From Cognatilysobacter tabacisoli (GTDB taxonomy: Bacteria > Pseudomonadota > Gammaproteobacteria > Xanthomonadales > Xanthomonadaceae), in contig NZ_QXJI01000004.1 of assembly GCF_003586305.1 (NCBI RefSeq), forward strand, positions 248,001-312,000: a stretch of DNA of 64,000 nt. Reading direction: 5' to 3'. How positions within the stretch are numbered: position 1 is the stretch's first letter; the number at the start of each line of letters is the position of its first letter. Below are positions 47,571-54,508 of the stretch, piece after piece. Under the pieces are notes generated by a model, which was given only the letters and a program-made list of their open reading frames with translations, did no database searches and was not told where the DNA came from. The position numbers and the translations under genes were made by a program.

Positions 47571-48872
47571 TCAGTCCAGCAGCAGCGCGCGAAGCGCGTC
47601 GTAGTCGACCGCCATCGGCTCGGCGTGCGCCGGCCGCGCGAGCTGCGCGGCCAGCGGCGCCGGCGGCGTGACCGCATGGCCCACCAGCGGCTCCACGATC
47701 GTGTCGAACTTGGCCGGGTGCGCGGTCGCCACGACGGCCCACGGGCGCGCGTCGCCGGCGGCGCGCAGCGCGTCGAGCACGTGCAGTCCGACCGCGGTGT
47801 GCGGGCACGGCACCACGCCGTGGTGCGCGGGCGCGGTGCGGATCGCATCGGCGATCGCAGCGTCGTCGACCGCGACCGCGCGCATCGCCGCGCGCACGGC
47901 GTCGTCGCTCGCGTGCCAGGCACGCAGGCGCTCGAAGTTGCTCGGCGCGCCGACGTCCATCGCGTTGGCCAGCGTGGCGACGCTCGGCTGGGGCGCGTAG
48001 TCGGCGCCGGCGAAGTAGCGCGGCAGCACGTCGTTGGCGTTGCTGGCCAGCACGATGTCGCCGATCGGCAGGCCCATCGCCCGCGCCAGCCAGCACGCCA
48101 GCGCGTTGCCGAGGTTGCCGGTCGGGACCACGTAGTTCAGCGGCCCGCCGTGCGCGGCTTCGTGCGCGCGCGCCGAATGCGCGTAGTACGCCGCCTGCGG
48201 CAGCAGCCGGCCGAGGCTGATGCTGTTGGCCGAGCCGAGCGGGGCGCGCGCGCGCAGGTCGGCGTCGGCGAGCGCCTGCTTCACCAGCCGCTGGCAGTCG
48301 TCGAAGCTGCCGGCCACGCGCAGCGCGCGCACGTTGTCGCCGAAGCAGCCCAGGCCGTGCGCCTGGCGCGGCGACACCCGGCCGTCGGGGTACAGGATCA
48401 CCACGCGGAAGCCCGGCCGACGGTGGAACGCCGCGCCGACCGCGGCGCCGGTGTCGCCCGAGGTCGCGACCAGGATCGTGATGTCCGGATCGTCGGCGCC
48501 GCGCAGCCGCGCCATCACCTCGGCGAGGAACCGGGCGCCGACGTCCTTGAACGCGGCGGTCGGGCCGTGGAACAGCTCGAGCAGGTGGTCGCCGTCGCCG
48601 CGCTGTGGGCGCAGCGGGGTCGGGAAGTCGAACGCGGCCGCGCAGATCGCGGGCAGCGCGTCGCGCAGGCGCGAGCCGGCGAAGTACGGCGCCAGCAGCG
48701 CCGCGGCGGTCGGCGCGAGGTCGTCGGACGGCGGCGGCAGCGCGATGCGGTCGCCGTCGACGGTCGCAATGCGTTCGGGCAGGTACAGCCCGCCGTCGGG
48801 CGCCAGCCCCGCGGCGATCGCGTCGTCCAGCGACGCCGGCGCGGCGTGGCCGCGCGTGCTTACGAATCGCAC
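47571..48872 (-). CDS. thrC: Threonine synthase
   Basis: 433 residues from GTG at 48872. [20 protein letters not shown] at the start, [20 protein letters not shown] with PLP-binding Lys109, [15 protein letters not shown] and [20 protein letters not shown]. Converts O-phosphohomoserine to threonine. The GTG start lies inside the thrB 3' end (13-base overlap), so the thr genes are translationally coupled. Last gene of the superoperon before a convergent-free gap of 49 bases. Confidence 0.97.
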
Positions 48873-49861
48873 GCGATCAGCTCCGCGCGCGGGCCGTTGA
48901 CCGGCGACACGTACGCGCGGCTGCCCAGTCCCGCGCCGGCGAACGCCTGCTGCATCGCGTCGGCCGCCGCCGCGGCGTCGGCCTCGCTGGCGAACCAGCC
49001 GAACACGGTCGGCCCGGCGCCGGAGATGCTCGCGCCGAGCGCGCCGTGGTCGAGCGCGGCCTGTTTGACGTCGGCGAAGCCGGGGATCAGCGCCGCGCGG
49101 CGCGGTTCGACCAGCACGTCGCGCAGGCCTTCGCCGATCAGCGCGACGTCGCCGCGCACCAGCCCGGTCAGGAACAGCGCCAGGTACTCGCTCTGCTTGA
49201 CGAAGTCGGCCAGCGGGTACGGCTCGGCGAGCGCGGCGCGCGCGCGGCGCGTTTCCAGCACGAAGTCCGGGTGCACCGCGGCGCAGAACAGCCCCGGCGC
49301 GGACAGGCGGATCGCGCGGGTCGACGTCGCCAGGGTCACGCCGCCGAACAGCATCGGCGCGACGTTGTCGCCGTGCAGGCTGCCGCTGGCGACGGCTTCG
49401 CCGGTGAGGGCCAGGTGGTACAGCGCGTCGCGCGACAGCGGTGCATCGAGGGTCGCGTTGGCCGCGACCAGCGCCGCCACGCACGACGCCGCCGAGCCGC
49501 CCAGCCCGCTGCCGAGCGCGATGCCCTTGTGCAGCTTCAGCTCGAAGCCGTGCTCGAGGCCGTGCTGTTCGCGCAGCGCGATCAGCGCGCGGCCGCCGGT
49601 GTTGCGCTCGGCCGCGAGCGGAATGACCTCGATGCCGGCGACGTCGCCGGTGATCGCGAGCACCCGCACTTCGGGCGCGTCGATGCGGCGCACCCACGCG
49701 CGGTCGCCCGGGCCAGCCAGCGTGTGGCCGAGCAGGTCGAAGCCCACGCCGATGTTGCCGACGCTGGCCGGCGAGAACGCGCACGCCTCCCGCACCCTGC
49801 CGCCGTCCTGCACGCCCATGCCCGCTCCCGCTTCCACTGCTGCCAGATCCAAAGCGATCAC
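48860..49861 (-). CDS. thrB: Homoserine kinase (GHMP family)
   Basis: 333 residues from GTG at 49861; ATG at codon 15 would also be possible. GHMP motif: [40 protein letters not shown] opens the fold, [20 protein letters not shown] is the C-terminal motif. The GTGA overlap with thrA (4 bases) supports the GTG start. Confidence 0.95.
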
Positions 49862-52395
49862 AGCCGGGCCCCGAGGGCCTGCGCGATCGCCAGCACGTCG
49901 CCGAACACGCCGGCGGCGGTGACGTCCGGCCCGGCACCCGGGCCCTGCACCACCAGCGGATTATCGGCGTAACGCGCGGTCCGGAACTGGATCAGGTTGT
50001 CGGTCAGGCGCCCGTGGCGGCTGGCGTGGCCGTCGCCCGGCGCGACCAGCCCGACCCGCGCCCGGCCGTGGGCGTCGAGCCGGGCGAGGTAGCGCAGCAC
50101 GCCGCCGCCGGCGCGCGCCTGTTCGAGCCGCGCCAGCAGCGGCGCGTCGAGTTCGGAGGCGCGGGCGAGGAACTGCTCGCGCGGCACGTCGCGCAGCGCC
50201 GGCGGCACCAGGCTCTCGATCTCGACATCGGCCAGCGACAGCTCGCGGCCGGCCTCGCGCGCGAGGATCACCAGCTTGCGCGCGACGTCGAGGCCGGACA
50301 GGTCGTCGCGCGGGTCCGGCTCGGTGTAGCCCAGCGCCTGCGCCTCGCGCAGCAGGGTCGAGAATGGCACCGAGCCGTCGAAGCGGTTGAACAGCCACGC
50401 GAGCGTGCCCGACAGCAGGCCGTCGACCTCGGTCAGCGTGTCGCCGGTGTCGAGCAGGCCGCGCAGCGTCTGGATCACCGGCAGGCCGGCGCCGACGGTC
50501 GCTTCGTAGCGGAAGCGACCGCCGTGGCGCTCGGCGGCGCGGATCGCGCGGTAGCGGTCGAGCGGCCCGCTGCCGGCGTGCTTGCTCGGCGTCACCACGT
50601 GGATGCCCGCCGCGAGCCAGTCGGCGTAGCGCGCGGCGACCGCGTCGCTGCCGCTGCAGTCGACGATCAGCGCGTGCGGCAGGTGCTCGGCGCGCACGTG
50701 GGCGGCAAAGCGGTCGAGGTCGAGCGTTTCGGCGCCGTCGAGCGCGTCGACCGCGGCGACGGGGTCGAGCTTTCGCGCCGCCAGGTGCATGCGCCGGCTG
50801 TCGGCGACCGCGCGCAGGCGCAGGTCGAGGCCGGCGTGCCCACCGTCGCGCTGGTGCGTCGGCAGGGCGCTGGCGAACTGCGCCAGCAGCGCGCGGCCGA
50901 CGTTGCCGGGCCCGATCAGCCCGACCGACACGGTCTGCGGCGACAGCCAGAACGCCGCGTGCGCCGCGCGCAGCCCGCGCACCGCGTCGCCGGCGTCGAG
51001 CGCGACCGAGATGTTGCGCTCGCTCGCGCCCTGGGCGATCGCGCGGATGTTGACGCGCGCCTTCGCCAGCCCGTCGAACAGCCGCGCCGCCACGCCCGGC
51101 GTGCCGACCATGCCGTCGCCGACGGCCGCGAGCACGGCGATGCCGGGCGTGACCTCGACGCCTTCGACCTGGGCGTCGGCGATCGCGTCGGCGAACGCGT
51201 GCGCGACCGCGTCGCGTGCGCGCCCCGACTGCGCCGCGGGGACCACGCAGCAGATCGAGTGCTCGCTCGAGCCCTGCGAGATCACCGTCACCGACACGCC
51301 GGCCTCGCGCAGCGCCGCGAACAGCCGCTCGGCCGTGCCCGGCACGCCGATCAGGCCGGCGCCGCTGAGCTCGAGCAGCGCCAGGTCGGTGACCAGGCTC
51401 AGGCCCTTGACCGGCGACGCGGCCGGGGCCGACTCGCGCGCGATCCACGTGCCCGGCGCCGACGGGTCGAGCGCGTTGCGGATGCGGATCGGCAGGCCCG
51501 CCTGCATCGCCGGCGCCATCGTCTGCGGGTGCAGCACCTTCGCGCCGAAGTACGCCAACTCGCAGGCCTCGGCGTACGACATCGACGACAGGCACACCGC
51601 GTCGGGCACCAGCCGCGGGTCGGCGCTGAGCACGCCGTCGACGTCGGTCCAGATCGTCAGCGCGCTCGCGTCGAACAGCACCGCGAAGATCGCGCCGGAG
51701 TAGTCGCTGCCGTTGCGGCCGAGCGTGGTCGCGCGGCCGTCGGCATCGCGCGCGATGAAGCCGGTGACCACCACGTCGCGCTGCGGGTGGCCGGCGCGCC
51801 ACGCAGCCAGGTTCGCGCGGCTGCGCGGCCAGTCGACCGCCACGCCGAGCTCGCCGGGGTGCACGACCAGCACCTCGCGCGCGTCCAGCCGCGCCCAGCC
51901 GGCGGCGTCGCCGCCGAGCGCGGCGTGCAGCAACCGCGACGACCACAGCTCGCCGAGCCCCTGGATCGACGCGAACGCCGACGCGCCCAGCTCGCCGGCG
52001 TCGGCCGCGGCGCGCAGGCTGTCGTGCAGCGCGTCGAACTCGCCGTCGAGCCACGCGGCCAGCGCGTGCCGGTCGGCGCTGCTGCCGTGCCCGTCGATCT
52101 CCGCCGCGGCGGAGAGGTGCCGGGCGCGCAGCCGCGCCCAGTCCTCCTGCCACGGGGCGTGGGCGACGGCGTCGCGGGCCAGCGCGGTCAGCGCGTCGGT
52201 GACGCCCTGCATGGCCGAGACCACGGCCACGCGCGGTGCCGGGTCGTCGGCGAGCAGCGCGGCCACGGCGGCAATGCGGCCCGCGTCGGCGACGCTGCTG
52301 CCGCCAAACTTGTGCGCGCTGCAGACGGCGGCCGGCGATGCGGTGGCGACGACGCGCGCCGCGGCGGCGTCGGGGTGGAGCGGTGAAGAAGGCAT
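49858..52395 (-). CDS. thrA: Bifunctional aspartokinase/homoserine dehydrogenase
   Basis: 845 residues. Aspartokinase domain about 26-315 with [13 protein letters not shown] (29-34 in the loop) and [18 protein letters not shown]; tandem ACT domains (about 330-480) with [16 protein letters not shown] and [15 protein letters not shown] where threonine feedback acts; homoserine dehydrogenase from about 488 with [17 protein letters not shown]. The strong AAGGAG before the ATG lies behind a GC-rich hairpin. Controls entry of aspartate into threonine and isoleucine. Confidence 0.97.
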
Positions 52396-52425
52396 CGGTG
52401 CAGCTCCTTGGGGGGCCAGCGCCCA

Positions 52426-52520
52426 CCGGGTCCGCGCTCGGCACCCGGGTCGGATGCGGAGCGGGGGGTGGGGAGGTCAGTCCGTCACGTCCGTCCACAC
52501 CCGCACGTCCGTCGTGCGGG
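52426..52520 (-). promoter_or_regulatory. Candidate thr attenuator: hairpins after the leader Thr codons
   Basis: An 8-bp perfect hairpin (52500-52520, CCCGCACG...CGTGCGGG) starts directly behind the threonine codons, where a stalled ribosome would melt or protect it. A second GC hairpin (CCGGGT...ACCCGG, 52426-52448) lies between the leader stop and the thrA ribosome binding site. No T-run is present, so the mechanism may be Rho-dependent or act on thrA translation rather than a classical intrinsic terminator. Confidence 0.5.
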
Positions 52521-52644
52521 CGTCGGTGGTCGTGGTGGTCGTGGCGGTGCTCGTCGTGATGTGGGCGTCCGTGGCCGCACTCGCGCGCGCGCCGCCGGCC
52601 GCGAGGCGGCGAACGAAGGCGGCGCGGCGGTGGCGTCGGCGCAT
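52477..52644 (-). CDS. thrL: thr operon leader peptide
   Basis: A 55-codon frame in the 297-base gap between leuB and thrA. The N-terminal part is arginine/alanine-rich (MRRRHRRAAF...). Residues 29-45 are an isoleucine/threonine run, ITTSTATTTTTTDARTT, with 11 Thr in 17 positions, and two more follow before the stop. Such a run, in this place, is the signature of a threonine-sensing leader as in enteric thrL, where scarce charged tRNA-Thr stalls the ribosome. The ribosome binding site is weak. Longer than the 21-residue E. coli leader. Confidence 0.8.
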   Translation of the reverse strand: MRRRHRRAAFVRRLAAGGARASAATDAHITTSTATTTTTTDARTTDVRVWTDVTD

Positions 52645-52692
52645 GCGGCTGGATTCCGGCGGGGCGGGCGTTAGTCGATCGGTGGGGCCGCG

Positions 52693-53898
52693 TCAGTCGC
52701 GCAGCTCGGCGACGTGGCAGTGGCACTGCAGGTACTCGAGCACCGCGGCGGTGGCCTCGCGCGTGCCGATCGCGTTGCCGGCCGGCGCCAGGTCGGCGGT
52801 GAACGCGCCGGCGTCGAGCGCCAGCGCCACCGCGCGCTCGACCAGCGCCGCCTCGTCCTCCAGTCCGAGCGAATGGCGTAGCAGCATCGCCACGCTGAGG
52901 ATCGTCGCGTACGGGTTGGCGACGCCGCGGCCGGCGATGTCCGGCGCCGAGCCGTGGATCGGCTCGTACAGTCCCATCACAGTGCGCTGGCCGTCCATGG
53001 CGTTGCGTGCGGTGGTCTCGAAGGCCCCTGCCCGGCCATCCGTGGCCGGGCGTCCAGCGGCGCACGCACTGTCGATAGGACAGTGCGCAAGCGCGCCGCC
53101 GGACCCCAGCGACGCCGACGGCAGCAGCCCGAGCGAGCCGGCCAGCATCGAGGCCTCGTCGGTCAGGATGTCGCCGAACAGGTTCTCGGTGACGATCACG
53201 TCGTAGTCGCGCGGCTTGGCGATCAGGTGCATCGCCATCGAGTCGACCAGCTGGTGCTCGAGCGCGACGTCGGCGAACTCGTCGCGATGCACGCGCGTGG
53301 TGACTTCGCGCCACAGTCGCGACGTCTCGAGCACGTTGGCCTTGTCGACCGACGTCACCCGCCCGCGGCGGCCGCGGGCGAGGGTGAACGCGCGCCGCAC
53401 GACGCGCTCGACCTCGGCCACGGTGTATTCGCACACGTCGCGCGCGCGGTCGGCGCCGCGCGACTTCTCGCCGAAATACAGGCCGCCGGTCAGCTCGCGC
53501 ACGACCAGCAGGTCGACGCCGTTGAGCAGGTGCGGCTTGATCGGCGACGCGCCGAGCGCGGCCGGGTGCGGGCGCACCGGGCGCAGGTTCGCGTACAGCC
53601 CGAGCGCCTTGCGCAGGCCGAGCAGGCCCTGCTCGGGGCGCACCGGCGCGCCGGGGTCGGACCACTTCGGCCCGCCGACCGCGCCGAGCAGGACCGCGTC
53701 GGCGCGGCGGCACGCCGACAGCGTCGCGTCCGGCAGCGCCTCGCCGGTCGCGTCGATGGCCGCGCCGCCGATCAGCGCGGTCGTGGTGGTGAACGCATGG
53801 CCGAAGCGGCGGCCGATGGCCTGCAGCACCTCGACGCCGGCGGCGGTGACCTCCGGGCCGATCCCGTCGCCGGGCAGGACGACGATCTCAGCGCGCAT
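52693..53898 (-). CDS. leuB: 3-isopropylmalate dehydrogenase carrying an in-frame insertion
   Basis: 401 residues from the ATG at 53898 (GGGGAG upstream), about 40 longer than usual. LeuB motifs are present: [58 protein letters not shown] and MYEP-type [20 protein letters not shown]. Between SLGSGGA and GLYEPIHG, where relatives have 0-5 residues, lies a foreign segment of about 39 residues (270-308) translated from a palindromic repeat. It falls in a loop just ahead of a conserved active-site segment. Oxidises 3-isopropylmalate in leucine synthesis. Overlaps leuD by 11 bases. Confidence 0.92.
52975..53091. repeat. Palindromic repeat element inserted in the leuB coding sequence
   Basis: About 117 bases with two perfect inverted repeats, 53065-53087 (CGCACTGTC, GATAG, GACAGTGCG) and 53030-53051 (GCCCGGCC, ATCCGT, GGCCGGGC), and a 9-bp direct repeat ACAGTGCGC at 52979-52987 and 53080-53088. 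The reading frame stays open through it. The hairpin-rich structure is that of an intergenic repeat. Confidence 0.7.
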
Positions 53899-54508
53899 GG
53901 TGGCGCTCCCCGTGGGACTGGCCATGGTGCGACTCCTCGTAACGTTGGATGGCGGGGCGCTGCTTGAGCAGGTAGCCGAGCTGGTCGACGCCTTCGAGCA
54001 GGCAGGTCTGCGCGAACGCGTCGAGCGGGAAGCGGAACCGGCGGAAGTCCGGCAGCATCACCTCGCGCGCGGCGACGTCGACGTGCAGCGACAGCCCGGG
54101 TGAATCGAGCAGCTCGTCGACGACGGCTTCGTCGAGCACGATCGGCAGCAGCCCGTTCTTCAGCGCGTTGCTGCGGAAGATGTCGGCGATCTCGGCGCTG
54201 ATCACCGCGCGCACGCCGAGATCGAGCAGCGCCCACGGCGCGTGCTCGCGCGACGAGCCGCAGCCGAAGTTGCGGCCGGCCACCAGGATCGCGGCGCCGT
54301 CGTTGGCCGGGTCGTTCCCATGCTGGTTGAACGGGAACGCCGGGTTCGGCGCGCCGTCGGCGGTCCGGCGCCAGTCGTGGAAGGCGTGGCGGCCCAGCCC
54401 GCTGCGCTGCGTCGTCGTCAGGAAACGGGCGGGAATGATCTGGTCGGTGTCGATGTTGCGCTCGCGCAGCACGACGGTGCGCGAGGTGAAGTGGGTGATG
54501 GGCGCCAT
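53888..54508 (-). CDS. leuD: 3-isopropylmalate dehydratase small subunit
   Basis: 206 residues from ATG at 54508. [53 protein letters not shown] and [11 protein letters not shown] are the small-subunit swivel domain. With LeuC isomerises 2- to 3-isopropylmalate. The ribosome binding site lies in a palindrome, AGGAGCGCTCCT, touching the ATG. The stop overlaps the leuB start. Confidence 0.97.

Follow-up and report, generated by a model that had tools for sequence, protein, structure and literature searches.

What does a threonine-rich reading frame do upstream of thrA when no obvious terminator follows it? The window (the whole 64 kb stretch of DNA analyzed here) carries on one strand, the minus strand, where all features given below lie, the genes ilvD-ilvC-ilvG-ilvM-ilvE-ilvA-leuA-leuC-leuD-leuB-[leader]-thrA-thrB-thrC. 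The thrL-like leader peptide ORF (52477-52644) runs from an ATG at 52644 to a TGA ending at 52477 and comprises 55 codons, MRRRHRRAAFVRRLAAGGARASAATDAHITTSTATTTTTTDARTTDVRVWTDVTD before the stop, including 14 Thr codons (9 ACG and 5 ACC). Its run of Thr control codons, ITTSTATTTTTTDARTT (52510-52560), is supported by the frequency of Thr by position in the 116 leaders introduced below and has 11 Thr per 17 residues, the last two Thr codons being at -36 and -33 from the leader stop. A six-frame scan of the window ranked this run as the densest in Thr, and as the sole site with at least nine Thr in 17 residues; in the same kind of scan no leader rich in branched-chain amino acids was found before the ilv genes at the threshold used.

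The leader ATG follows the end of leuB (52693-53925) by 48 nucleotides, and 81 nucleotides, exactly the thrL-thrA spacing of Escherichia coli, separate the leader stop from the start (52395) of the presumed regulated gene, thrA (49858-52395; bifunctional aspartate kinase/homoserine dehydrogenase I, NF006959, 904 bits). The genes thrB (homoserine kinase, 48860-49861) and thrC (threonine synthase, 47571-48860) come next. An earlier, sequence-only reading had correctly described this Thr-rich ORF close behind leuB, with hairpins behind its Thr codons that our fold of the window also contains, although it counted 49 nucleotides after leuB and closed its interval at 52426. That position is the end of one hairpin (C:E, below), while the element runs on to the thrA start at 52395. 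We propose that the locus is a ribosome-mediated attenuator of thrABC responding to threonine, and to some extent isoleucine, whose output is most likely the initiation of thrA translation; we give this reading a probability of roughly 50%.

The leader is widespread in the Lysobacterales. Upstream regions of thrA were drawn from genomes sampled in the family of the window organism, where thrA N-termini were located in 230 of 297 cases, and from named genomes. A rule-based selection gave 116 non-identical leader versions, nearly all from Lysobacterales and including a few doubtful members (L109, L128). Leaders were present in Lysobacter, Luteimonas, Xanthomonas, Stenotrophomonas, Pseudoxanthomonas, Arenimonas, Rudaea, Tahibacter and Dokdonella, and in nearly all the loci read in these groups a Thr-rich ORF ends 78 to 99 nucleotides before thrA; in several other families of the order, for which few loci were read, no such leader was seen. 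Leader length is mostly 23 to 62 codons, and a Thr codon occurs at -33 from the stop in 75% of the 116 leaders. The sequence-only reading had named lack of conservation of the Thr run in close relatives as one result that would refute it, and on inspection the run is conserved. Its identification of a threonine attenuation leader is also supported, since conservation across the order extends to the Thr run, to its location ahead of thrA and to the downstream helices. Three relatives also have a TPP riboswitch (RF00059, above cut-off) near the thrA leader (L054:1259-1358, L072:860-962 and L048:1324-1425).

Which RNA structures follow the Thr codons? The relatives share a fixed order of segments: Thr codons, A (GGTGCGG...) at the ORF end, the stop codon, B (...CCGCACC), C (GGxTGCGG), E, D5, D3 and the thrA ATG. 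In the window, A (52489-52506) occupies the final leader codons and pairs with B, according to the swap test described below and the minimum free energy fold. B (52451-52461, core CTCCGCATCCG) lies past the leader stop and has A, C or D5 as partners (swap test, fold and pair counts). C (52437-52447; swap test and fold) forms with B a stem that corresponds to the terminator stem of E. coli but lacks the U-tract, and with E (52426-52434; swap test and window fold) a separate hairpin. D5 (52416-52428) is GCGGGGCTCC or GCGGGGCCTC in relatives and is remodelled in the window (CGGTGGGCGCTGG), where we placed it from a local hairpin of -12.3 kcal/mol. D3 (52396-52409 in the window) is GGAGCC or GAGGTC in relatives and contains the thrA Shine-Dalgarno (SD) sequence, AAGGAG at 52404-52409 in the window. 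One more window hairpin, CCCGCAC-GACGGAC-GTGCGGG (52500-52520), spans the end of the Thr codon run together with the 5' portion of A and would compete with A:B. Two variants of this organization were met among other genomes. In L038 (G084:C23), a close relative, B-, C- and D-like segments are kept about 100 nucleotides upstream of thrA, and the Thr codons are in a frame other than that of the usual leader end, through a frameshift, decay or a sequencing error. A Rhodanobacter MAG (L161) has a D5:D3-like SD hairpin, GCGGGGCTCC-ACAA-GGAGGCCC, directly upstream of thrA; a Thr-rich leader was not found upstream of it, where short GACCCCGTGCTC repeats stand instead.

Support for these helices comes mainly from a swap test, which compares the duplex energy of each genome's own two segments with that of segments exchanged between distant genomes. 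The own partner was better by 2.3 to 5.0 kcal/mol for A:B, B:C, C:E, B:D5 and D5:D3. On the scale where these helices have differences of -2.3 to -5.0 kcal/mol, seven named control pairs ranged from -0.7 to +1.1 kcal/mol; the t values of this test derive from non-independent samples. When the swap was mapped without bias over 73 divergent genomes, with a length filter on alignment windows, 703 window pairs were ranked, and the first 23 all fell within the five helices. Pair counts in 41 genomes agree: A:B is paired in 97.9% of cells, against 36 to 69% when one strand is slid, and B:D5 forms standard pairs in 91.2%, against 31 to 60%, with one position changing from CG to UA in eight genomes. 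For D5:D3, a one-base shift of the stem from clade to clade blocks column counts, and our assessment of it relies on the swap test and on folds of single sequences. Column covariation against a tree-based null, whose tails were very wide, gave zero significant pairs. The support for the helices is therefore that of the swap test with its controls and of the pair counts. On these comparisons, the five helices are co-evolving and partly exclusive.

The most familiar use of such helices would be transcription attenuation of the E. coli type, with A:B forming in starvation and B:C in sufficiency. The arrangement of A, B and C is that of E. coli thrL, the 81-nucleotide spacing included, and most Thr codons are situated where a stalled ribosome leaves A free to pair with B. 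The obstacle is the terminator. An E. coli-like U-tract was found in none of the 116 leaders: no run of T in the interval from leader stop to thrA exceeds 4, and only 4 of 116 have at least five T in any 8 nucleotides, against nine T in a row in the E. coli control. This rules out an intrinsic terminator at B:C or after the D segments, so that B:C would have to terminate without a U-tract, in a non-canonical or Rho-assisted manner, with D5:D3 secondary. The co-evolving B:D5 and D5:D3 helices would be left without a role, and T-stretch terminators have been reported in Xanthomonas upstream of another gene, rpsL (PMC2965389). U-tract terminators are not in excess elsewhere in the window, a result that is uninformative on terminator use in this genome. 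We regard transcription attenuation as possible but doubtful. Because the E. coli-like direction needs a terminator that is absent and leaves B:D5 and D5:D3 without a function, we favor a translational output, at about even odds. The sequence-only reading had remarked on the lack of a clear T-run terminator; this is confirmed, and since it is general to the order it points to a different output, the SD hairpin, rather than to a defect.

How accessible is the thrA SD? Among 55 divergent genomes, 50 have at least 3 of its nucleotides paired in a local hairpin. The mean cost of opening it is 7.8 kcal/mol, compared with 4.7 kcal/mol for 110 other genes and 4.5 kcal/mol when the upstream sequence is shuffled. 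This cost depends on B: it is 7.6 kcal/mol without B, 5.4 kcal/mol with B free and 7.0 kcal/mol when A and B are both present. A ribosome with its A-site at -33 abolishes A:B and lowers the cost from about 7 to 5.2 kcal/mol. In the translational scheme that we prefer, A:B, C:E and D5:D3 would be paired by default and the SD closed. When charged tRNA-Thr is scarce, a ribosome held on the last Thr codons would mask A and free B, allowing B to pair with D5 across the C:E hairpin and thereby to release the SD; B:C would compete and set the threshold. Both the direction and the output of this attenuator are what we infer, its sign and any transcriptional effect being the most uncertain parts.

Ribosome positions put constraints on this scheme. 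When the ribosome stalls at an early or middle Thr codon, A remains free, which favors A:B and a closed SD, so that, in the model, only stalls at about -33 or later would help translation, and earlier ones would act with the wrong sign. The SD cost falls just as far with a ribosome at the stop codon as with one at -33, and equilibrium SD accessibility plotted against ribosome position gave no clear switch, the SD being mostly paired at every position. The scheme would thus require that the stalled state outlast the passage of a terminating ribosome. Might the leader instead act at both levels, with early-Thr stalls or arrival at the stop altering transcription, for instance through Rho, and the SD hairpin adding translational control? 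Five helices do exceed the needs of a two-state attenuator, and the Thr codon run, C-rich and G-poor, would suit Rho loading. Yet if Rho were to load onto Thr codons left exposed, transcription would be terminated in starvation, which is the wrong sign, and we consider such dual control unlikely.

In relatives, TTGAC occurs 36 to 38 nucleotides before the leader ATG in 105 of 116 cases (107 if offset 35 is counted). The commonest class, offset 36 (56 genomes), has a TNNWCT box at -12 to -7 and a C at -1 in 96%; across the full set neither A nor T occurs at -1. Of 107 leader ATGs, 1 has an SD-like motif in front of it, as opposed to 115 of 116 thrA starts. From this TTGAC/-10-like pattern without an SD, transcription in relatives is predicted to start at or next to the leader AUG, making it a leaderless leader peptide. 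We can formulate a broader proposal, held tentatively and at slightly less than even chances: across much of this gammaproteobacterial order, a leaderless Thr leader would control thrA translation via an SD-sequestering hairpin and its anti-sequestor, an E. coli-like core having kept its sensor while the output moved from termination to translation.

The window copy departs from its relatives in its promoter and in its D segments. A scan for the sigma-70 consensus found no promoter in the window, and the counterpart of the conserved promoter (52651-52678) is degenerate and weak, reading TCGACT at -34 and GAATCC at -12 relative to the leader ATG. Furthermore, A:B (-23.8 kcal/mol), B:C (-18.0) and C:E (-17.0) are at cohort strength, whereas B:D5 is weak (-7.8 kcal/mol against a cohort mean of -16.8). 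The SD hairpin is remodelled as CGGTG...CACCG (the local -12.3 kcal/mol hairpin), and its SD opening cost of 3.8 kcal/mol is near background and, unlike in relatives, does not drop on masking A. Is the Thr-rich ORF then a relic or a low-complexity sequence devoid of regulatory function, at least in the window? The missing TTGAC box and weak B:D5 would fit such decay, as would the loss of the leader in L109 and its out-of-frame position in L038. But this copy still has a Thr run denser than any other in the 64 kb, the canonical 81-nucleotide spacing, and A:B, B:C and C:E at cohort strength, so that we hold a relic to be very improbable. The remodelled D segments and degenerate promoter rather suggest that the thr genes of the window may depend partly on readthrough from ilv-leu, which a leader only 48 nucleotides after leuB, behind a weak promoter, makes possible.

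This bears on the gene order, which the sequence-only reading had found unusual and had read as a possible switch separating thr expression from a branched-chain transcript. The order is indeed particular, but to the window genome and its subclade (L094, L095, L096), where ilv-leu lies upstream of thrABC; most relatives have the leader without leuB, and in many Lysobacter and Luteimonas (L097, L098, L099, L105 and others) thrABC lies upstream of ilv. A separating role is plausible in that a TTGAC promoter stands between leuB and the leader in relatives that share this order; in the window itself, where the promoter is degenerate, readthrough from leuB is possible. Lysobacter antarcticus GW1-59 (L109; 20.5 kb around thrA) shows the ilv-leu-thr order of the window with no Thr leader. 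Its leuB-thrA gap is 48 nucleotides and its thrA SD is open, with no SD hairpin (opening cost 1.7 kcal/mol). This natural loss of the leader is a single case, yet it links the SD hairpin to the leader.

If our reading is correct, a textbook threonine attenuator can switch its output and retain its sensor. This would explain why the leader escapes searches based on terminators or on Rfam in a large order, one to which important plant-associated bacteria belong. The Gammaproteobacteria would also gain an example of a leaderless leader peptide, and the question of which output suits GC-rich genomes would gain a natural case. We found no prior report of a Xanthomonas threonine leader in the literature searched; Vitreschak et al. 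2004 was outside our coverage and an earlier prediction is possible.

How does this leader compare with known systems? No hit over the RF00506 (Thr_leader) gathering cut-off was obtained in the window, 20 relatives or 60 family genomes, whereas E. coli, among the controls, was matched; the leader gave no match to any Rfam or NCBIfam family. With E. coli thrL it shares a Thr/Ile-rich leader ORF before thrA, A at the ORF end followed by B and C, exclusive A:B and B:C helices and 81 nucleotides from leader stop to thrA start. It differs in lacking the U-tract terminator, in the additional E, D5 and D3 segments, in having the thrA SD within a hairpin, in its predicted leaderless start and in its greater length (mostly 23 to 62 codons versus 21). 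The sensor is thus of the known thr-leader kind, and the element is outside RF00506 by score and outside the E. coli type by its terminator feature. Multi-helix attenuators of the trp and his type have a 1:2 / 2:3 / 3:4 topology, which is shared here if A, B, D5 and D3 are taken as segments 1, 2, 3 and 4; in the Lysobacterales leader, however, segment 4 is the SD and not a terminator arm, and the C:E hairpin comes between segments 2 and 3.

An established case of a leaderless leader peptide is trpL of Sinorhizobium meliloti (PMC10117765), whose mRNA starts directly with the AUG of the peptide, as we predict for the Lysobacterales leader. That system senses tryptophan and is a transcription attenuator yielding an attenuator sRNA (rnTrpL), and an SD-sequestering output is not described in that article. 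In Actinobacteria, the LEU element and the ileS T-boxes with SD-sequestering hairpins have a similar output, in that amino acid control is predicted to work by way of the SD at the level of translation initiation, and the LEU element likewise involves a leader peptide (PMC1262725). Both belong to another phylum and have another fold: the Leu codons of the LEU element pair directly with the SD, and the ileS T-boxes sense tRNA without a leader peptide (PMC1262725).
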